From assembly GCF_022919835.1 (NCBI RefSeq), contig NZ_CP095074.1, positions 3,143,501 to 3,207,500 on the forward strand: a stretch of 64,000 bases of DNA, in the 5' to 3' direction. Position 1 is the stretch's first letter. Every line of letters starts with the position of its first letter. The notes below the pieces were generated by a model, which was given only the letters and a program-made list of their open reading frames with translations, did not search any database and was not told the origin of the DNA. Position numbers and translations under genes: made by a program. Below are positions 48,570 through 64,000 of the stretch, piece after piece. The stretch is from Halobacillus shinanisalinarum (GTDB lineage Bacteria > Bacillota > Bacilli > Bacillales > Halobacillaceae).

Positions 48570-50041
48570 TTAGTTAAACCAGTTAATCGGCTCTGGTTTT
48601 GTGTTTTGGAAAATGTGTTTTACTTCTGTATACTCCTCAAGTCCCGATTTACCTAATTCACGACCGATTCCTGATTGTTTGTAGCCGCCCCAGGGTGCTT
48701 GAGCGAAGTAAGGGTGGAAGTCGTTAATCCATACAGTGCCCATCCGAAGTTCAGCAGCCACTTGATTAGCTTTAAGCGTATCTTCCGTCCATATACCGCC
48801 AGCTAAACCATAGATGGAATCATTGGCTAACTTGATCGCTTCTTCTTTCGTAGTAAAACGCTCGACCGTTAACACGGGGCCGAATACCTCTTCCTGGACA
48901 ATTCTCATATCTGTTGTACAGTCTGTGAATAGAGTCGGCTCATAAAAGAAACCGTTTTGTAATTCAGACGAATCAGGGCGTTTTCCGCCAGCACGTAATG
49001 TAGCACCTTCCTGCTTCCCTAGCTCTACATAGCCTTCCACTTTGCCGCGATGTTCGGCTGAAATCATGGGCCAGATTGTGTTGTCTCGTCAAATCCATTG
49101 CCGAGCTTGATGTTGTTCACACGTTCAACCAACTGGGAGACGAATTGATCATGGATTTTATCTTCCAAAATCAGTCGAGCCCCAGCGGAGCATACTTGAC
49201 CTGCATGGAAATAAGCGGCATTAAGTGCTTGATCCAGTGCTGTTTCCATATCAGCATCGGCAAAAACAATATTCGGATTTTTGCCACCCAGCTCTAAGGC
49301 GATGTTTTTCATGGTGTCGGCCGCAGATTTCATGATTTTTTTACCAGTGTGAATACCGCCCGTAAAGGAGATAAGATCTACCTGATCGTTATCGGCTAAT
49401 TCCTGTCCAACCGTTTCTCCAGCGCCTAACACTAGATTAAACACACCATTTGGTACCCCGGCTTCTTCTATTAACTCGGTTACTTTTACAGTAGTAAGTG
49501 GAGTGATTTCACTAGGCTTGATTACTACGGTATTACCAGCTGCCAGGGCAGGGGCAATCTTCCAGGAAGCTTGCAACAACGGATAATTCCATGGGGTGAT
49601 TTGGGCGCATACGCCTACGGGTTCACGAACAACCTTGCTCGCAGAATCAGTGATAGGGGAGTCAATGATTTCTCCGCCATCCTTGTCAGCAAGACCTGCA
49701 TAATAACGAAAGACTTCAGCGATATCATCCATATCTGCACGACTTTCTACTATTGTTTTTCCAGTATCCAGTGTCTCTAGTTCTGCTAGTTCCTCTTTAT
49801 CGCGTTCAATTAGAAAAGCGACTTTCGATAGTAGCTTTCCACGCTCCGAGGCAGGAGTGTGTCGCCAATCTCCGTTGTCAAAAGCAACTCGGGCGGCCTG
49901 GATCGCTTCTCGGACGATGCTTTGATCACCTTCAGTTGCTTTAGTGATAACTTCTTGGTTAAAAGGGTTAATAATATCACGGGTTTGTTCCGACTGTGGT
50001 TGGATCCATTCCCCGTTTATAAACATCTTTTGTCTATTCAT
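48570..50041 (-). CDS. gbsA: betaine-aldehyde dehydrogenase, -1 frameshift in the C-terminal third
   Basis: The N-terminal frame (50041 to 49064) covers MNRQKMFINGEWIQP, the nucleotide fold (ITPWNYPLLQASWKIAPALA), catalytic Glu in LELGGKNPNIVF and catalytic Cys in FHAGQVCSAGARLI. The frame then breaks at the GGG 49068-49070 and continues MISAEHRGKVEGYVELGKQE to 48570. Restoring one base gives FDETTQSGPMISAEHR, as in GbsA, and a protein of about 490 residues. It oxidises betaine aldehyde to glycine betaine. It closes an operon with FNR, Rieske and amidohydrolase genes. Confidence 0.88.
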
Positions 50042-52809: not shown

Positions 52810-52848
52810 AACTTTCGCTTGATCATAATCAATGATCAAGCGAAAGTT
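52810..52848. promoter_or_regulatory. 17-bp perfect inverted repeat before the third BCCT gene
   Basis: AACTTTCGCTTGATCAT and its exact complement flank the 5-nt loop AATCA. No T run follows, so a terminator is doubtful. The position 130 bases before the GTG start suits an operator or a leader hairpin. A TTG-started frame at 52819 inside it is not a credible gene start. Confidence 0.7.
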
Positions 52849-52980
52849 CCTATTACTTACCCGGTTGGCAAAAGTGTGAAAAGTGAGATTAAAGAACACT
52901 TGGTCCGTTTGGCACGTCTATTAATGTGTGCTAGTATATTAAACATTCGACAAAAAACACGATATATGAGAGGTGATTCG

Positions 52981-54502
52981 GTGAAGAATGTAACAATAGT
53001 ATTTTGGAATGCCCTCGCCATTTGTACGGCGGTGGTTATCTGGGGTGTCATTGCACCAGATCAACTAGAGTCTGTAACGGCAAAGGTAACTTCATATATT
53101 TCCACAACATTCGGCTGGTATTATTTGTTGATTATCATGTTAATGCTTGCCTTTTGTATTTATTTGATTTTTTCTCGGTTTGGCAATATTAAATTAGGAA
53201 AAGAAGACGATCAGCCAGCCTTTAGTTTGCTTTCCTGGTTTGCCATGCTCTTCAGTGCTGGGATGGGGATAGGATTAGTTTTTTGGACGACTGCTGAACC
53301 GATTTCCCATGCATTCAAAAACACCCCTGGGGCAGAAGCTGGATCTGATCAAGCCATAAAAGAAGCACTTCAGTACTCCTTTTTTCACTGGGGTGTCCAT
53401 GCATGGGCCGTTTATGGAATTGTGGCTCTAGTGCTGGCGTACTTCAAGTTTCATAGGGGGCGCCGGGATTAGTAAGTGCAACACTTGAGCCTTTGTTTGG
53501 GGAAAAAAGCATGCGTGGTGCACCAGGAAAAGTAATTGATACCCTGGCTGTTTTTGCTACAGTAGTAGGTGTGGCTTCCACGCTAGGTTTTGGATCAGCT
53601 CAGATTAATGGCGGACTATCATTTTTATTCAATATCCCCGTTAACTTTGGTGTTCAATTGTTAATACTTGTCCTTTCTACCGTTCTATTTATTGGTTCAG
53701 CCTGGACAGGTATAGGCAAAGGAATCAAGTATTTAAGTAACATTAATATGGGTCTAGCCTTTATCTTATTGCTTCTCCTTTTAATAGTAGGGCCGACGTT
53801 ATACATATTAAATATGTTTACGAGCACGCTAGGCGGATATATTACTAACTTCTTTGAGATGAGCTTTCACCTAGCCCCGTTAAATCAAGAAGGTCGAACG
53901 TGGATTAATAACTGGACCATCTTTTATTGGGCATGGTGGGTTTCCTGGGCACCTTTTGTGGGAATCTTTATTGCAAGAATCTCCAAAGGGCGTACAGTGA
54001 AAGAATTCATGCTTGGCGTATTGATTGTTCCATCGCTATTATGCTTTGTCTTTTTTGCCGTGTTTGGTGTCTCTGGGCTTTATCTCGAGCAGAACGGTAT
54101 TGCGGCCATTTCTGAATTTCCTTTAGCAACAGCAACCTTTGGAATGCTTCAGAATTATCCAATCGGTGAGCTCATGTCATTTATAACCATTCTGGTCATA
54201 GCGATATTTTTCATAACATCAGCTGATTCAGCAACCTTTGTTTTGGGAATGTTGAGTACCTCGGGGTCTTTGAATCCATCTAATTCTGTTAAAATGGTTT
54301 GGGGTGTATCACAATCGGCCATGGCGGCTATTATTGTGTACTTTGGGGAACCCAAGGGCTGCAAAATGTTCTGATCGTCGCAGCGTTGCCTTTCTCTGTT
54401 GTCATTCTATTAATGGGACTCTCCTTCTATAAAGTTGCAAGAAAAGAAATGAAACCAAAGCGTGAGAAAAGAAAAAAGCCAACTTTGCGAAAGGAAGCGT
54501 AA
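52981..54502 (+). CDS. BCCT-family betaine transporter, two -1 frameshifts
   Basis: Three frames join into one carrier. 52981-53460 gives KNVTIVFWNALAICTAVVIW and the glycine-rich SAGMGIGLVFWTTAEPISHA. The frame from 53460 gives APGLVSATLEPLFGEKSMRG and the signature WTIFYWAWWVSWAPFVGIFI. The last frame, to 54502, gives TQGLQNVLIVAALPFSVVIL. One missing G in each run (53456-53460 and 54345-54348) restores a protein of about 507 residues. The GTG start follows AGAGGTGAT. It is divergent from the gbsA operon, so it may import that pathway's substrate. Confidence 0.88.
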
Positions 54503-56164: not shown

Positions 56165-56765
56165 TTTTCTAATTCCTCCTTGTAATGTTTTGTCTTTTTC
56201 GACTCCTTCATACTACCATTCTATTTTTGTAATATAAGAGGATAAATATGGGTTTTCCTGCTAGATTATTGTTGAAAAGCTTCAGGCGCATCAGTCTAAG
56301 CGAGAAAGTATCAGTTAACCATTGGTGATAAGCCGTTTACCTTTTTATTCCTATACAGTTAGTGTATTGATGGATTGGAAGATAAATAAACTCGGAGAAA
56401 AATATTAACAATGCATAAGTCTTGACAGGTGTTTAATTCACATTGCTTCTTTACTAATGTTACGTCTATGTTACAAATATGACTATTTATGACGTGAGAA
56501 TTTTTAGGGTCATATATAAATAGCGTTGTTTTCTCTTTAACAGATAATATAAAAGGAGATGATCCACTTTGGAGGATATTCCATCAATTGTTCGAAGGAA
56601 ATTTAAAGCTGGTTATGGTTAATTCTGAATGAACATTCGTTTACATAACTTTCAGAAATTTATCGTTGAATGTTGGAAAAGGTTCATGTACAATAAGAAA
56701 CAATTACGTGTAGTTAGATCGATCTAAAAGGTAGATCGATCTAACGAATATAGGGAGGGGATTTC
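56165..56765 (+). other. intergenic region before the TRAP operon
   Basis: Mostly A/T-rich. A ribosome site at about 56552 (AAAGGAGATGA) precedes a 17-codon TTG frame that stops at once, probably a gene relic. The end carries the paired GATCGATC operators. Confidence 0.4.
56713..56745 (+). promoter_or_regulatory. double LacI-type operator at the TRAP promoter
   Basis: TTAGATCGATCTAA (56714-56727) and TAGATCGATCTAAC (56732-56745) are palindromes whose centres are 17 bp apart, and the pair itself forms a larger inverted repeat. The same word recurs before the aldehyde dehydrogenase at 63273. They lie 21-50 bases before the dctP start, over or just after the promoter. The LacI regulator at 60089 is the probable ligand. 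Confidence 0.8.
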
Positions 56766-57772
56766 ATGAAAAGAGTAACGCTTGGTCTATTGTTGGCGGC
56801 CATGGCAGTAATTTGTTCTGCGTGTTCCATAGGTGCTTTGGGAGCCTCAGGTGAAGATGTTAAAACTATGAGACTAGCTGTAGTCACTTCCGAAGATCGA
56901 TCTTTAACGCAAGGATTATATAAATTTCAAGAAATTGTTGAAGAAAAAACGAGTGGGAAAATCAATGTTGAAGTCTATGCGAATGGGGTTTTAGGGGGGA
57001 CAGAGAAGTATTGGAAGGTCTCCAACTTAATACGATCCAAGGAACTACAATTTCAACAGGCCCAATAGCCCAATTTGCACCACGCTTTCAAATATTTGAT
57101 TTGCCTTTTTTATTTCCTGATAAAGAAAGCGCTTACGATGTTCTTGATGGGCCTGTTGGGGATGAGTTGTTAAAAGATTTACCCAAACAAAATTTAATAG
57201 GCTTATCCTACATGGAGAATGGATTTAGACAACTTACTAATAATGTGGAGGAAATTGACAGTGTAAAAGATATTGAAGGTTTAGATATAAGGACGCTTCA
57301 AAATGAGCTTCATATGGATATATGGTCAGAGTTAGGTGCAAATCCTACACCTATTAGTTACACAGAACTGTATCTGGCTCTGGAGCAAGGAACTGTAGAT
57401 GGACAGGAGAATCCAGTTGGAAATGTTGTAACCGCTAACTTCTATGAGGTTCAACAATACTTAACTAAAACGAACCATGTATATAATGCGAGTGTATTTA
57501 TGGTCAGCAAGCCATTTTGGGAATCCCTGACTGAAAAACAAAGAGAGATTATGGCAGAGGCTGCTATTCAAGCTCGGGATTATCAACGAGAACTTAATCA
57601 GAAAGAAAGTGAAGAAGCTTATGATTTCTTAAGAGAAAAAGGAATGACGATTACAGAATTAACTGAAGAGCAAAGACAGGAAATGATTGAGGCAGTCCAG
57701 CCAGTTTATGAAAAATATAAACCGGTAGTTGGAGAGGATCTACTAAATAAAGTATTAAATAAGGTTCAATAG
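56766..57772 (+). CDS. dctP: TRAP transporter substrate-binding protein (DctP), -1 frameshift
   Basis: The first frame gives a signal sequence with an atypical lipobox (CSAC) and LTQGLYKFQEIVEEKTSGKI, then GVLGG. At the G run 56994-56999 one G must be restored to read GDREVLEGLQLNTIQG, the typical DctP motif. The second frame continues to 57772 with FQIFDLPFLFPD, RTLQNELHMDIWSELGANPT and ALEQGTVDGQENP, all family-typical. The joined product is about 335 residues. It binds a carboxylate ligand outside the membrane. GGGAGGGG precedes the ATG. Confidence 0.88.
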
Positions 57773-57840: not shown

Positions 57841-58407
57841 ATGAAAGTAATTAAATGGTTAGATAGACATTTTGAAGAATTTTTCCTCGTTTTCTTTTCC
57901 GTGATCATGGTTACGGCTATATCCTTGCAAATCTTTATGAGGTTATTTGGGGAGTCGTTAGGGTGGTCAGAGGAATTAGGAAGGTACTGCTTCATATGGC
58001 TTGTTTACATAGGGATTAGCTATGGAGTGAAAAAACAACGGCATATAAAGGTCGATGTCATGCTTTTATTACTTAAAGACAAAGGTAAAGTTGTCCTGAC
58101 AATGATCGCAAATGTTATATTTTTGACCTTTGCTATTTTCGTCGTTATTTATGGGTTTGAAATTGCTTATAAAATATTGGATTGGGGACAGACATCACCC
58201 GGATTAAATCTTCCCATGGGGATTGTTTACTTAGCAACACCTGTAGGAATGGGACTGACTGCCATTAGAATCATTCAACAGTTAGCCAAGCAATATGCCT
58301 TTCTTACAGGTAAGGATGGCAAGGAAGAGGAACCATTGGCTAACGGAAGCAGTAGAGCTAACGTTCTTACACATGAACAGGACATGACAGGGGGAGGTAG
58401 AACATGA
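57841..58407 (+). CDS. dctQ: TRAP transporter small membrane subunit (DctQ)
   Basis: The 188-residue protein has four predicted helices. The DctQ signature is SLGWSEELGRYCFIWLVYIG (about 39-58) and GLNLPMGIVYLATPVGMGLT is near 122-141. A hydrophilic C-terminal extension (after about 160) is unusual but small. It couples DctP to the DctM channel. It overlaps dctM by 4 nt (ATGA). Confidence 0.92.
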   Translation: MKVIKWLDRHFEEFFLVFFSVIMVTAISLQIFMRLFGESLGWSEELGRYCFIWLVYIGISYGVKKQRHIKVDVMLLLLKDKGKVVLTMIANVIFLTFAIFVVIYGFEIAYKILDWGQTSPGLNLPMGIVYLATPVGMGLTAIRIIQQLAKQYAFLTGKDGKEEEPLANGSSRANVLTHEQDMTGGGRT

Positions 58408-59675
58408 CAGCTGCATTGTTATTTGGTGGCTTTACAGTTTTGTTACTAATTAGTGTCCCAATAGGTATTGCATTAGGGGTTGCTTCATTACTCACCCTTA
58501 TTTATACTAATACGCTTCCGGTTGAATATATCGCACAAACCTTAATCACTTCAGTCGATTCCTTTCCAATTATGGCTGTTCCTTTCTTTATCTTAGCTGC
58601 TGAAATTATGGGGAAGGGTGGGATATCCAACCGTCTTTTTACCTTAGCCAACACATTGGTTGGTAATAAAACGGGCGGCTTTGCCATGGCAACCATTGTT
58701 ACGTGCATGTTTTTTGCTGCTATCTCAGGGTCGGGTCCGGCTACAGTTGCAGCGATAGGAGGAATTATGATCCCTTCGATGGTTAAAATGGGGTATGATA
58801 AAAAGTTTGCTACTGCATTAGTTGCAGCTGCTGGTTCTTTAGGAGTTATCATCCCACCAAGTATCCCTATGGTTATATATGGAGTTGTTGGAGGAGCTTC
58901 TGTAGGCGATTTATTCGTTGCAGGCATTATACCAGGCTGTTTAGTTGCCGCAGGATTAATGGTTTATTCCTATTATTATTCTAAGAAGATGGGTTATCGT
59001 GGAACAGGTGAGAAGTTTACGTTTAAGCGGTTTTATGATGCCGCTTGGGATGCTAAATGGGCGCTGTTAATTCCTATTATTATTATCGGGGGAATATATG
59101 GAGGTATATTTACACCTACCGAAGCAGCAGCGGTTGCCGTAGTATATGGGTTAATTGCAGGTTTGCTTTTATACAGGGAACTTAATATAAAAGATTTACC
59201 GAAAGTTTTTGCCGACTCTGCCTTAACGACAGCTACAGTTTTGATTATAGTTGGGGCTGCCACAGTATTTGGCAGACTATTAACAGTTGAGCAAATCCCT
59301 ACTAAGGTAGCCAATGCTATGCTTTCCATTTCAGAAAGCCCAATCATCATTATTATGCTAATTAGTTTGCTTCTACTCATTGTCGGTTGTTTTATGGATA
59401 CATTGGCAGCCATCATCATTTTAACTCCGATTCTTTTGCCAATAGCTACAGAAATAGGATATGATCCTGTTCATTTTGGAATTATTATGGTTGCCAACCT
59501 GGCTATTGGGTTTATAACACCTCCTCTAGGTGTGAATTTATTTGTTGGTTCTGGGATCTCTGGATTATCGATAGAGTCTCTTTCTAAAGCAATCGTTCCT
59601 TTCTTTGTAGCAATGATCGTTACGCTTTTGCTAATTATATTTATTCCTCAGATTTCCTTAATGTTTTTAAAATAG
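58404..59675 (+). CDS. dctM: TRAP transporter large membrane subunit (DctM)
   Basis: The 423-residue, 12-helix protein has the DctM hallmarks: SFPIMAVPFFILAAEIMGKG near 53-72, GSGPATVAAIGGIMIPSMVK near 108-127, GSLGVIIPPSIPMVIYGVVG near 141-160 and GFITPPLGVNLFVGSGISGL near 367-386. It forms the Na+-driven translocation pathway. The ATGA overlap with dctQ shows translational coupling. The substrate is unknown. Confidence 0.94.
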   Translation: MTAALLFGGFTVLLLISVPIGIALGVASLLTLIYTNTLPVEYIAQTLITSVDSFPIMAVPFFILAAEIMGKGGISNRLFTLANTLVGNKTGGFAMATIVTCMFFAAISGSGPATVAAIGGIMIPSMVKMGYDKKFATALVAAAGSLGVIIPPSIPMVIYGVVGGASVGDLFVAGIIPGCLVAAGLMVYSYYYSKKMGYRGTGEKFTFKRFYDAAWDAKWALLIPIIIIGGIYGGIFTPTEAAAVAVVYGLIAGLLLYRELNIKDLPKVFADSALTTATVLIIVGAATVFGRLLTVEQIPTKVANAMLSISESPIIIIMLISLLLLIVGCFMDTLAAIIILTPILLPIATEIGYDPVHFGIIMVANLAIGFITPPLGVNLFVGSGISGLSIESLSKAIVPFFVAMIVTLLLIIFIPQISLMFLK

Positions 59676-59706: not shown

Positions 59707-59964
59707 ATGAAAGAGAGCAATCAAGAGATTATTGTCAACATAAGTGAAGAGCAAACCATTATTGAACTGAGTGATAGACTCCAACCCTATAAGTCCGAAA
59801 TATTTCTTAAAAAAATATATCAAGGAAGTATTTATGAGATTAATTTAAAAAGTTTCCTAGGTTTGATTACACTTAAAATAAAGAATGGAGACAAAATTTG
59901 GGTTCGTGCAGCAGGTACAGACTGTAAAGAGGCATTGCAATCAGTAGTTGAATATTTAACATAA
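59707..59964 (+). CDS. HPr-like protein lacking the active-site His
   Basis: The 85-residue protein matches the HPr/Crh fold in its C-terminal two-thirds: INLKSFLGLITLKIKNGDKI (45-64) parallels VNLKSIMGVMSLGIAKGAEI of HPr, with Ser49 at the place of regulatory Ser46, and GTDCKEALQSVVEYL parallels the last helix. The N-terminal loop that should hold His15 reads EEQTIIELSD with neither His nor the Gln of Crh. It therefore cannot carry PTS phosphate but might be a Ser-phosphorylated regulator. GGAGG precedes the ATG. It lies between dctM and the LacI gene. Confidence 0.8.
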   Translation: MKESNQEIIVNISEEQTIIELSDRLQPYKSEIFLKKIYQGSIYEINLKSFLGLITLKIKNGDKIWVRAAGTDCKEALQSVVEYLT

Positions 59965-60088
59965 CCGAATACTTATCAGAGGAACTTCACCCCAATATGA
60001 AAGAGGCCGCAAATTGACAGTATAAATCAATGACCATATAATCAAATAAATAGATATTTTTACTAATTTGTTTTTTGAGGTGAAGAAT

Positions 60089-61102
60089 TTGAGTCAGAAA
60101 AAAGCTCGCGTTACTTTAAAACAGGTGGCGGAACATGCTGGAGTATCTCGAGCGACCGCTTCTCTTATCGTACGTAACAGTCCAAGCATTTCAGAGCCTA
60201 CCCGGGAAAAAGTATTGGCCTCTATGGAGGAATTAGGATATGTTTATGACCGTGTCGCGGCGAATTTGAGAGGGCAGAGTTCAACCACAGTAGGATTGAT
60301 TATTACTGATATCGCTAACCCTTTTTTTAATGAATTGTTAGTAGGCGTCCATAATAGATTGGAAGAAGATGGCTATACAGTTATCCTAGGAACTACGTTT
60401 GATATGGAAAATAAACAACAGAAACTTATTTCTACTATGATGGAACATAGGGTAGGCGGAATCATTCTTTGCCCAGTATCTGATAGTTCATCGATAAATG
60501 TGGAAGAGCTGCAAAGATGGAACCTCCCTATCGTTACCGCTGTTAGAGAAATAGAGGGGCTCGCTTGTGATTATGTAGGTATTAATTATGCAGAAGGTGC
60601 CCAAATGGCAGTAGAGCACCTCATTAATAAGGGTCACCAAAGAATTGCGTTTGTCGGTGGAAATTCAGAGTCCTCTGCATGGCAAAATCGGAAGAAAGGT
60701 TATATGCTTGCACATAAGAAAGCGGAAATAGAGGTAGATGAGTCACTGATTGTAGAGAGTTCTGCTGAAAGATCAGGCGGGGTGGAATCGATCGAGCGTG
60801 TATTGGAAGAATCAGATCCGCCTAGTGCAGTTTTCTGCTTCAATGACTTAGTTGCTTTCGGTGTAATAGAGGGATTACGCAGGGCTGGTTATCAGCCTGG
60901 TAAGGATGTGGCAGTAGTAGGATTTGATAATGTAGAAGAATCAGCAACACTATCCTATCCGTCATTAACGACCATTTCCTCTCATGCAAAAGTTATCGGC
61001 AGTAAAGCGGCTGATTTACTGCATCAGCGAATAAATAATAACGAGGTAGAGCAGCAGCGCATTATCCTACACCCGGATTTGGTTATAAGAGAATCCTCCT
61101 AA
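60089..61102 (+). CDS. LacI-family transcriptional regulator
   Basis: The 337-residue regulator has the LacI helix-turn-helix and hinge at about 6-62 (VTLKQVAEHAGVSRATASLI, YDRVAANLRG) and a periplasmic-binding-like effector domain (VGLIITDIANPFFNELLVGV, FCFNDLVAFGVIEGL, VAVVGFDNVEESATLSYPSL). The TTG at 60089 is chosen because GAGGTGAAG precedes it. It probably binds TTAGATCGATCTAA sites at 56714, 56732 and 63273. The effector should be the TRAP substrate or a metabolite of it. Confidence 0.92.
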   Translation: MSQKKARVTLKQVAEHAGVSRATASLIVRNSPSISEPTREKVLASMEELGYVYDRVAANLRGQSSTTVGLIITDIANPFFNELLVGVHNRLEEDGYTVILGTTFDMENKQQKLISTMMEHRVGGIILCPVSDSSSINVEELQRWNLPIVTAVREIEGLACDYVGINYAEGAQMAVEHLINKGHQRIAFVGGNSESSAWQNRKKGYMLAHKKAEIEVDESLIVESSAERSGGVESIERVLEESDPPSAVFCFNDLVAFGVIEGLRRAGYQPGKDVAVVGFDNVEESATLSYPSLTTISSHAKVIGSKAADLLHQRINNNEVEQQRIILHPDLVIRESS

Positions 61103-61178: not shown

Positions 61179-61742
61179 TTAATCATATAAATTCCAGGCC
61201 ATTTTTAACGATTCTGTAATATAATCAGCGACTTCTTCTTCATCTAGCTGGTCCGTCATTAACTTAGAATTGTGGTCAGAGTAGCTATCTTTTCTTTCGT
61301 GAAATAACGTTTCTATTTCTTCAATCGTTCTCCCTTGCAGCACCGGGCGGCTGTCTACTAGCATACTCAGTCTTTCCTTCCAGGAATCCCATGAAATGTC
61401 CAAATAGAAAACAATACAGTTAGTCAAGCAAACATTACGAATCTCCTCTTGCAAGAATGCTCCTCCACCAAGTGATATAATCTTCAGCCTCTGTTGGCAA
61501 CATGTAGTAATAGTGTTTTTTTCTTCTTTACGAAAGGCTTTTTCACCAATTGTTTTAAAGATTTCAGAAGTGGGCATTTGATATTTATTTTCAATTTCCT
61601 GGTCAACATCAATAAAGCTTCGGTGAAGTTTTTTGGCAACCAACCTGCCTATTGTTGTTTTACCAACACCCATAAAGCCGACAAACACGATACTTTTTTC
61701 TCTTAGCGGAATTTCTCTTAATGAAATGTCTTTGTTTACCAT
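61179..61742 (-). CDS. shikimate-kinase-like protein
   Basis: The 187-residue P-loop kinase has GFMGVGKTT (22-30), the DxD-type FIDVDQEIEN near 38-47, SEIFKTIGEKAFRKEE near 54-69 and ISLGGGAF near 89-96. These are the shikimate-binding and nucleotide motifs of AroK. Later, RPVLQGRTIEEIE is the lid region. It is encoded in a transporter/catabolic regulon away from aro genes, so it may phosphorylate another hydroxy acid (inference). It is likely co-transcribed with the membrane protein 69 nt upstream. Confidence 0.87.
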   Translation of the reverse strand: MVNKDISLREIPLREKSIVFVGFMGVGKTTIGRLVAKKLHRSFIDVDQEIENKYQMPTSEIFKTIGEKAFRKEEKNTITTCCQQRLKIISLGGGAFLQEEIRNVCLTNCIVFYLDISWDSWKERLSMLVDSRPVLQGRTIEEIETLFHERKDSYSDHNSKLMTDQLDEEEVADYITESLKMAWNLYD

Positions 61743-61811
61743 ATGAAAGCATCCTTTAGTTTATAAAAGTTGGATTGATTATAATACATTTAGCAGTAAA
61801 TGTGCAAAAAT

Positions 61812-63170
61812 TTATATGGCTAAAAAAAGATTCAGCGTATACGCAATCGTCATTGTTAAGAGCATATAGCCTATGGAAAAACCGACGTTCCATAATCCTA
61901 AACGGTAAGGGTTCATTTTTAGTTGATTGGCTAGTATAGATACAGAAATATTAAATGGGCTGTACATAACTGTGCTTAGGCTGCAGGCGATTAATACTAA
62001 AGTTAATGAAATGTTTGCTACTTGAGGTAAGATAGGAACCAATAGTTCAGCTAGCAGTACAATGGATACTAAGGGATGAAACCCTATATAAGACGAAAGT
62101 AAGAAATATCCACCAATCATTAGATAGAAAATGAATGTTAGGTCTGCTGTAGAAACGAAAATAGTTTGCAAGATTCCGATAAGTTCAGTAGTGGCTAACA
62201 TTTCCACAAAAAAACCTGCACTTAAGAACATGAAAAAATAGTTCGACAATCCTTTTGTTTTTAATTTCCAATAAGGGATAGCAAGAGATACATACCTTTT
62301 GACTTTACGAATATACAGGGCCCAAAGTAATGAAATTGGTAGAATGAGCAGGACTAAAGAGAAAAGATAGCTTTGATTAAACAATTGATTAAAAAAAGTG
62401 ACCGTCACAACAAGAATTAGCAACAATAAAAATAATTCCCGAATCTTTTTAAATATATATTGATAGGAAATATCCATTTTACTAGACGTTGTTTCTAATG
62501 GAAGATGTTTATATTTTCTTTTAGCTATATACCAATCTAGAAATAAAGTCAAGACGGCAATAAAAAAGATGAAAGGAAATATAAATATGTAGCTTTCTTG
62601 GGTGATTTCAAGCGACTTAATCACCATAATTTCAAGCGGACTCCAGGTCAGACACATTGCATAAGCACGTAATAAATTTTCCGAATAGAATTTATTGCTT
62701 ATGTTTAATGGGAGATGTTTGAGTGTATTCTTTAATGACCGCAGTAACAGTGGAATAGTGGCAATGTTCAGGAATAAACCTAGGACGTGAGACACAAAAG
62801 AACTTCGTTTATATAAATCGCTGACACCATCTACTTTATATTTTAAGAATAGATTAAGGTTGGTATCATACCGCCCAACTTGAATTAAAGAATTTAGAAA
62901 AGGAAGCAATAAAAATAATGACAAAATGCCTAGCATCGAGTCAAAGTGGAGAAATACTGTATGCCATGACGAATCATTGTTTAAGAACAAGAGAAATCCT
63001 ATCACGTAAAAAGTAATACCGGAATATAAATACAATCCTTTTGCAAAAAACAATGAAATGAGGATTGCAAGATTTGCAAAGATTCCAACAATATAGAGGG
63101 TGGTATCTCCTTCCCAAATTTGTGATAGAAGATAAAGGAAAATTAAAACAGGGTAGATATAAACACGCAT
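61812..63170 (-). CDS. polytopic membrane protein, possible ion-transporter-superfamily permease
   Basis: The 452-residue product has about 12 hydrophobic segments, two pseudo-symmetric halves (CLTWSPLEIMVIKSLEIT near 178-195; CSLSTVMYSPFNISVSILAN near 402-421) and a charged central loop near 215-235. The paired Ser-Pro hairpins recall DASS/ArsB/TRAP-M type carriers, but I cannot assign a family. It is divergent from the aldehyde dehydrogenase and shares its GATCGATC operator region. It may be a second carrier of the same regulon. Confidence 0.7.
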   Translation of the reverse strand: MRVYIYPVLIFLYLLSQIWEGDTTLYIVGIFANLAILISLFFAKGLYLYSGITFYVIGFLLFLNNDSSWHTVFLHFDSMLGILSLFLLLPFLNSLIQVGRYDTNLNLFLKYKVDGVSDLYKRSSFVSHVLGLFLNIATIPLLLRSLKNTLKHLPLNISNKFYSENLLRAYAMCLTWSPLEIMVIKSLEITQESYIFIFPFIFFIAVLTLFLDWYIAKRKYKHLPLETTSSKMDISYQYIFKKIRELFLLLLILVVTVTFFNQLFNQSYLFSLVLLILPISLLWALYIRKVKRYVSLAIPYWKLKTKGLSNYFFMFLSAGFFVEMLATTELIGILQTIFVSTADLTFIFYLMIGGYFLLSSYIGFHPLVSIVLLAELLVPILPQVANISLTLVLIACSLSTVMYSPFNISVSILANQLKMNPYRLGLWNVGFSIGYMLLTMTIAYTLNLFLAI

Positions 63171-63272
63171 ATTTCCCCTCCTTTTGAGAGCATGATTAAG
63201 ATTTGCAGTAAAAGAATATAGATGGGTATTGAAATTTTCAATTTTCTATCGTATTATATTGATAACGGTTTC

Positions 63273-63349
63273 ATTAGATCGATCTAATAACCATCTTACG
63301 TAAGAAAAGGTGAAAAATCAAATAAACTTCATTTAGTAGATCGATCCAA
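63273..63349. promoter_or_regulatory. LacI-type operators in the divergent promoter region
   Basis: ATTAGATCGATCTAAT (63273-63288) is a perfect 16-bp palindrome containing the full TRAP operator word. A second, weaker copy TAGATCGATCCAAT begins at 63337. Together they can control the membrane-protein/kinase pair leftwards and the aldehyde dehydrogenase rightwards. A third copy, GTAGATCGATCCAT, lies inside the dehydrogenase gene at 63675. Confidence 0.8.
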
Positions 63350-63362
63350 TTATGAAAAGAGG

Positions 63363-64000
63363 GTGAGTAAAATGAATCTTAAAGCACAACCTTTTATCTC
63401 AGGAGAGTGGATTTCAGACGATCGGGAGAGATTAGAAATAAAAAGTCCATTTACTCAAGAAATGATTGGAGAACAATACTTAGCTACAGAAGAAGATGTA
63501 GAGCGAGCTCTTAATGCCGCTTATTCAAGTAAAAAAGAGATTAGGGATATTCCATCTGTAAAACGTGCGAAGATATTGAAAAAAGCATCGGAATTGATGG
63601 AACAAAATAAAGAGAAATTGGCAAAGATCATTTCTAGTGAATTAGGAAAGCCATTAAAAAATACGTTAGGCGAGGTAGATCGATCCATTGAAACATTAGA
63701 GTTGTCCGCTGAAGAAGCAAAACGTCTTCACGGGGAAACATTGCCGGGGACGCATCAGAAAGAGGGGTACACACTATTGCCTCAACTCATCGCGTTCCCG
63801 TTGGTGTAGTTGCAGCGATCACTCCTTTTAATGCACCGTTGAATCTAGTTTGCCACAAATTAGGGCCTGCCTTTGCTGGTGGGAATACAACCATTTTAAA
63901 ACCTGCCCCACAAACGACACTTATTGCTACGGAGTTGTTGAAGTTGTTGCTTGAAGCCGGCGTTCCTAAAAATGCGGTGAACATGGTGCTTGGCGGGGTG
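63363..64000 (+). CDS. aldehyde dehydrogenase, -1 frameshift, 3' end outside window
   Basis: The first frame gives AQPFISGEWISDDRERLEIK and runs to AEEAKRLHGETLPGTHQKE. At the G run 63764-63767 one G must be restored to read VHTIASTHRVPVGVVAAITP, the NAD-fold entry of ALDHs. The second frame continues FNAPLNLVCHKLGPAFAGGN, TTILKPAPQTT to the window edge. Catalytic Glu and Cys lie outside. The start is GTG 63363 or ATG 63372; the latter has GAGGGTGAG before it. Operators of the TRAP regulon precede it, so it probably oxidises an aldehyde derived from the TRAP substrate. Confidence 0.87.

Follow-up and report, generated by a model that had tools for sequence, protein, structure and literature searches.

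A His-less HPr-like protein that travels with one TRAP transporter clade and not with its neighbouring LacI regulator

Gene content of the locus

The window analysed here, i.e. the whole stretch of 64,000 nucleotides from Halobacillus shinanisalinarum, encodes on its forward strand the components of a TRAP transporter, a small HPr-like protein and a LacI-family regulator, in this order. The gene for the solute-binding protein DctP (56766..57772) is interrupted in this assembly, its two frames (56766-57068 and 57011-57772) both matching PF03480, and forms one open frame of 335 amino acids in the closest relative. It is followed by genes for the small permease subunit DctQ (57841..58407; PF04290) and the large permease subunit DctM (58404..59675; PF06808), the latter from the clade that is the usual partner of the HPr-like protein. 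This protein of 85 residues, designated HPrL in the following, is encoded at 59707..59964, and the regulator at 60068..61102 (PF00356/PF13377), with a start codon that, judged by eye, may lie further on, at a GTG or TTG up to about position 60089.

Frame-split genes in the window (56766-57772; 63363-63809 and beyond; 48570-50041; 52819-54374) comprise dctP, two genes for aldehyde dehydrogenases and one that by eye encodes a BCCT-type transporter. The aldehyde dehydrogenase gene near 63363 is, like dctP, unsplit in the closest relative. Such frame breaks may be assembly indel errors or real decay.

The gene neighbourhood of HPrL was compared across 43 named loci, with flanks of up to 8 kb and gene names taken from the Pfam matches of one representative each. 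DctM was found in 37 of these, followed by PfkB kinase (24), 2-hydroxyacid dehydrogenase (22), KDPG aldolase (21), dehydratase (19), 6PGDH and AEC permease (17 each), gluconokinase-like FGGY kinase (12), and regulators of the LacI (11) and RpiR (8) types. Judging by these neighbours, HPrL operons are predicted to serve the uptake and breakdown of sugar acids.

Fold and conserved residues of HPrL

HPrL matches PF00381 with 43 bits, above cut-off, and its AF2 model (pLDDT 92.4) has the HPr fold. Its score against the NCBIfam model for HPr, TIGR01003, is 33.6 bits and below the cut-off of 47.9. Residues were compared in an alignment for which 102 sequences were gathered, 87 of them distinct: 70 HPrL and 17 comparison proteins (11 Crh, 5 HPr and the protein of locus L005, see below). 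Identical sequences, the broken copy of genome G015, and loci L043 and L044, in which no ORF was called, were omitted.

The serine site is strongly conserved. Ser49 (codon 59851..59853), the counterpart of Ser46 in HPr and Crh, is present in all 51 HPrL proteins of the homologue search, the window's own included, and none of the 70 distinct sequences has lost it; Lys48, Leu51, Gly52 and Leu53 are likewise each found in 70/70. Codon switching at this serine, considered as a sign of selection on Ser49, was uninformative, the codon being AGC or AGT at each of the 41 named loci that have an ORF. The position of His15 in HPr and Gln15 in Crh is occupied in the window by Glu14 (codon 59746..59748) according to the sequence alignment; the structural alignment with Crh 1mu4 (VIA) starts with model residue 14 paired to Crh residue 15. 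Across the 70 sequences, this position is E in 63, D in 6 and K in one. An earlier note on this DNA had described an HPr-like protein with neither His15 nor Gln15 in its N-terminal loop and with the Ser46 site kept, a description that holds throughout.

A second change concerns Arg17 of HPr, which is Arg in 17/17 comparison proteins, the L005 protein among them. The window's HPrL has Gln16 at this position, and the 70 HPrL have Q (49), V (10), T (4), K (2), L (2), M (1), E (1) and R (1), the single homologue that keeps Arg being L024. With His15 absent and the Arg17 position changed, HPrL is not expected to accept phosphate from enzyme I by the known route. HPrL also contains a four-residue insert at positions 40-43, with glycine at position 40 in 65/70.

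In a tree of 57 rows and 88 columns, a branch with support 95/87 separates 36 of the 70 HPrL sequences from Crh, HPr and the second His-less family; with only 88 columns, this evidence is moderate. That HPrL is a Crh orthologue was rejected on the tree and on what stands at positions 15 and 17. HPrL resembles Crh in its HPr fold, the absence of His15, the intact Ser46 motif and the lack of any expected PTS transfer; it differs in the acidic residue in place of Gln15, the loss of Arg17 in 69/70, the insert, the separate branch and its location, mostly in TRAP operons. With HPr (ptsH) it shares the fold, the PF00381 match and the Ser46 motif, from which the missing His15, the missing Arg17 of the window copy and the score below the NCBIfam HPr cut-off set it apart. 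The window's genome encodes two HPr, its own Crh elsewhere, HprK and CcpA besides HPrL, which is thus an addition to the HPr, Crh and HprK set and no replacement.

A second His-less HPr-like protein, with the motif DVKSFLGLS, is encoded in the same genome (L005 / L110 8629-8958; C1:4790631-4790906). Its gene is divergent to a cluster that encodes a different TRAP transporter and, by eye, rhamnogalacturonan-degrading enzymes, and its family occurs in 18/397 genomes of the order, with up to 4 copies in one. This family was considered as part of the same TRAP story and set aside: besides L005, TRAP genes were found in 1/20 other regions (L161), a survey in which the motif missed the HPr gene in several of the 20.

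Distribution of HPrL and linkage to a TRAP transporter clade

HPrL was found in 49/397 genomes sampled from the order, spread over 23/135 genera, and in 16/44 genomes of the window's family, one of these with a broken copy. Its association with the transporter was assessed by assigning DctM proteins to the window's clade at E <= 1e-175 in the order sample, and by scoring HPrL as absent when no match at E <= 1e-12 was present. The DctM clade occurs in 55/397 genomes, i.e. in 46/49 genomes with HPrL versus 9/348 without (Fisher test, p 2.6e-47, the genomes being related and not independent). Moreover, for 46 of 50 HPrL genes a DctM-clade gene is located no more than 10 kb away, in every case on the strand of HPrL and in 19 cases within 200 bp. 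In the window's family, all 16 genomes with HPrL are among the 19 with the DctM clade (identity of 72% or more).

The four HPrL genes that have no DctM-clade gene inside 10 kb are those of G094 (C12), G171, G198 and G397. In G171, which was not counted as having the clade, a frame-split DctM-clade gene directly precedes HPrL. A DctM of 60% identity is encoded about 8 kb away on the opposite strand in G198. G397 has no clade DctM; there, HPrL is flanked by a dehydratase gene on one side and an AEC permease gene on the other. Among the 43 named loci, six (L012, L015, L032, L044, L045 and L046) feature no DctM in the stretch examined; the DctM found elsewhere in their genomes has 75% identity in two cases, 59-61% in three, and only 48% in that of L032. 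Conversely, the clade occurs without HPrL in the nine genomes of the order sample mentioned above and in three from the family sample (G032, G028 and G040), which indicates that HPrL is dispensable. The broken copy of G015 (G015:C1:1466440-1466695), which adjoins TRAP genes in open frames, is a further sign of this.

One explanation of this linkage would be that HPrL is never phosphorylated and belongs constitutively to the transporter as a small accessory subunit, with which the permanent acidic residue at position 14 would also be consistent. The invariant Lys48-Ser49 and Leu51-Gly52-Leu53 (70/70), however, match the serine motif of HPr and Crh and not a generic surface, and HPr kinase (TIGR00679) scores above cut-off in 47/50 genomes with HPrL, so that this explanation appears improbable. 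The three misses are genomes G196 (80% complete), G221 (90%, with 6% contamination) and G246 (62%). The control list of this search was silent for Bacillus subtilis, which does possess an HPr kinase gene, so the search can miss cases. Four of the 50 HPrL genomes (G061, G143, G164 and G405) encode an additional full-length paralog of HPr kinase, with E values of about 1e-98 to 1e-101.

Alternatively, HPrL could control an enzyme of the pathway, e.g. a sugar-acid kinase. A precedent exists in unphosphorylated Crh, which inhibits methylglyoxal synthase MgsA according to a passage in PMC13130090, and HPrL stays with catabolic genes in G397, L012 and L015, where no clade TRAP genes adjoin. Nevertheless, no enzyme family is as constant as the transporter, the most frequent one, PfkB kinase, being present in 24 of the 43 named loci versus 37 for DctM, and control of an enzyme is rated unlikely, though somewhat less so than an accessory subunit.

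The neighbouring LacI regulator and its operator

In the window and in the closest relative, the genes for HPrL and the LacI regulator adjoin, and the earlier note had proposed that HPrL, phosphorylated at its serine, is the private corepressor of this regulator. The arrangement recalls CcpA with HPr-Ser46-P or Crh-Ser46-P, in that a gene for a LacI-family regulator stands beside one for an HPr-like protein. The Protein Data Bank contains HPr complexes with CcpA and with a Vibrio fructose regulator, which belongs to the LacI family as well. Distant LacI-family genes (28-29% identity to that of the window) also lie beside divergent HPrL copies in 5/43 named loci (L043-L047).

The genomic distribution does not support such a partnership. 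The LacI orthologue was found in only 3/44 genomes of the family, two of which carry HPrL, and it is missing from 14/16 family genomes with HPrL. At other HPrL loci an RpiR-type regulator is found instead (11/16 family loci, 8/43 named loci). Among the 11 named loci with a LacI gene (43 examined), four encode a LacI of 45% identity or more. In genome G032 the order is dctPQM, lacI and the shikimate-kinase-like gene, with no HPrL between dctM and lacI and with the operators kept. HPrL thus travels with one TRAP transporter clade and not with the adjacent LacI.

The regulator itself is not CcpA: it scores 181.9 bits against TIGR01481 (cut-off 442.35), compared with 509.6 for the genome's own CcpA. 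It has Asp, His and Gln at the positions of CcpA Arg303, Thr306 and Lys307, the last of which also belongs to the HPr-Ser46-P site. Arg303/304 of CcpA contacts Ser46-P and Thr306 has a part in this, according to passages in PMC6155242 and PMC4591507. Position 303 is D, N, F, K and K in the five window-type LacI proteins, of which the two with K could still bind phosphate, and D in the divergent LacI proteins of L043-L047.

A likely operator of the regulator is the palindrome ATTAGATCGATCTAAT. Two candidate copies lie before dctP (56713..56745, i.e. 56713-56728 and 56730-56745) and two further ones before the aldehyde dehydrogenase operon (63273..63350, i.e. 63273-63288 and 63335-63350). At up to three mismatches the window contains seven matches, these four and three others with three mismatches each, a number reached in 0/100 shuffles. 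The palindrome recurs in L007, L013, L025 and G032, and weakly in L011; in G024 it is also found before dctP. In a genome-wide search at one mismatch or fewer, the sites within about 14 kb of the locus numbered 4/5 in the window's genome, 4/4 in G024 and 6/6 in G032, and no site was found in G025 and G002, which have HPrL and no such LacI. The same pattern read backward as a control gave one site in the window's genome and none in the others. The operator hence tracks LacI, present in 3/3 genomes with it, and not HPrL (0/2 LacI-less HPrL genomes searched).

A third site was observed in the window's genome at C1:3213594, about 7 kb further on. Together, the sites suggest a small LacI regulon comprising dctPQM, an operon for an aldehyde dehydrogenase, a Zn-dehydrogenase and a ThDP-enzyme, and this third site. 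Around this regulon (61179-63170; L095 15964-16737) are found a shikimate-kinase-like gene, which again adjoins the window-type LacI in relatives, a gene for a 452-residue protein that by eye is a membrane protein and at the thresholds used matched nothing in Pfam or NCBIfam, and a gene for a type I 3-dehydroquinate dehydratase.

No operator palindrome lies between HPrL and lacI. A promoter-like TTGACA-17-TATAAT on the forward strand (60014..60042; 12/12) does, identical in L080, the closest relative, and may give lacI a promoter of its own; the region shows no enrichment of promoter-like sites (11 versus 17.5 in shuffles). In L007, L013 and L025, HPrL precedes dctP, and operator-like sites between the two mean that HPrL need not share the dctPQM transcript; a weaker operator was found before HPrL in L007 and none in L013 and L025. 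From the operator, G032 and these three layouts it follows that the LacI circuit is complete without HPrL, and that HPrL is not always inside it. Taken with the replaced CcpA residues and an Arg at the Arg17 position in 1/70 HPrL only, these observations led us to reject a corepressor of the adjacent LacI as the main reading, and it is now a very improbable one. The wider part of the earlier proposal, an HPr of the Crh type that lacks His15, retains an intact serine motif of the HPr-kinase type and is private to an operon, fared better, and is backed by the HprK genes of the HPrL genomes.

HPrL might, instead, be a second Crh, phosphorylated by HprK and acting as corepressor for the global CcpA wherever sugar-acid operons have cre sites. 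Its fold and Ser46 motif are as in Crh, CcpA and HprK are encoded in the genome, and one cre-like site with 0 mismatches precedes the aldehyde dehydrogenase operon (63260-63273). Arg17, however, is required for CcpA, and HPrL has Gln or another residue in its place in all but one of the 70 sequences. Furthermore, no cre-like site at one mismatch or fewer was found before dctP; cre-like matches in the window are not clearly enriched (38 versus 29.3 expected, with 12/100 shuffles as high); and CcpA is already served by HPr and Crh. The presence of HprK is necessary, not sufficient, for a role of HPrL as HprK substrate and CcpA corepressor. This role is considered unlikely, if less so than any of the other alternatives above.

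A possible role in inducer exclusion

HPrL is probably a private carbon-status switch for sugar-acid uptake, and not a partner of the adjacent regulator. The reading we favour, still with somewhat less than even confidence, is that of an HPr paralog which receives no PTS phosphate, keeps its HPr-kinase site, is dedicated to sugar-acid TRAP operons and would act on transport via inducer exclusion. At high glycolytic flux, HprK would phosphorylate Ser49, and HPrL-Ser-P would bind the TRAP permease, or else the AEC permease whose gene is often a neighbour of HPrL; uptake through the bound permease would be blocked, as a local form of inducer exclusion. An acidic residue in place of His15 may hold the surface permanently in a state like that of a His-phosphorylated protein or of Crh, and so keep HPrL out of the PTS.

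Inducer exclusion is suggested by the transporter being the most constant element across differing regulators (LacI, RpiR) and enzymes, and by the way in which an HPr with only its serine site accompanies a permease gene. Both the lost Arg17 and the acidic position 14 speak against HPrL exchanging freely with PTS enzymes, and they make a CcpA-corepressor role less likely. The fold, the loss of His15, the near-complete loss of Arg17, the conservation of Ser49 and its motif, the HprK gene in nearly all HPrL genomes, the linkage to the TRAP clade and the genomic independence from LacI are observed; phosphorylation by HprK, the transporter as target and inhibition as effect would be the steps added to them. 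Against a transport target, it should be said that the products of one operon need not physically touch. The general idea of a private Crh-like output of HprK is plausible. Its most specific form, in which HPr kinase would switch sugar-acid import by a dedicated TRAP inducer exclusion, through a private His-less HPr with a built-in acidic mimic at position 15, is offered as a tentative proposal.

In lactic acid bacteria, P-Ser-HPr causes inducer exclusion by acting on permeases. The proposed role of HPrL is similar in that the state of HprK would gate a non-PTS permease; it differs in that HPrL is dedicated and operon-encoded while HPr is general, and in the TRAP transporter as proposed target. 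The CcpA system differs further from the locus described here, where the LacI protein lacks the residues that read HPr-Ser-P and the operators are kept in a genome without HPrL. To our knowledge, HprK signalling has not been linked directly to TRAP transport before, and HPrL, if the proposal is true, would be the first such link. By titles and the beginnings of abstracts, no paper on a TRAP-linked HPr was found in the literature covered, outside of which most subscription journals fall; in PMC11837500 and PMC5924567 both terms, TRAP and HPr, are present somewhere in the text. At the level of titles and abstracts, HPrL is thus a variant of the HPr/Crh kind that was not met in this literature.

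Implications

HPrL is widespread, and its named records are labelled phosphocarrier or HPr-family proteins; yet carriage of PTS phosphate is not expected without His15. The locus also corrects an inference that such an arrangement invites, for an HPr-like gene beside a LacI gene does not mean a corepressor and its regulator. A likely operator of this LacI is now available, and the question of whether carbon status gates TRAP import has become directly testable. If HPrL is a substrate of HprK, catabolite signalling in Firmicutes would consist of a global pool of HPr and Crh together with private HPr copies assigned to single operons.
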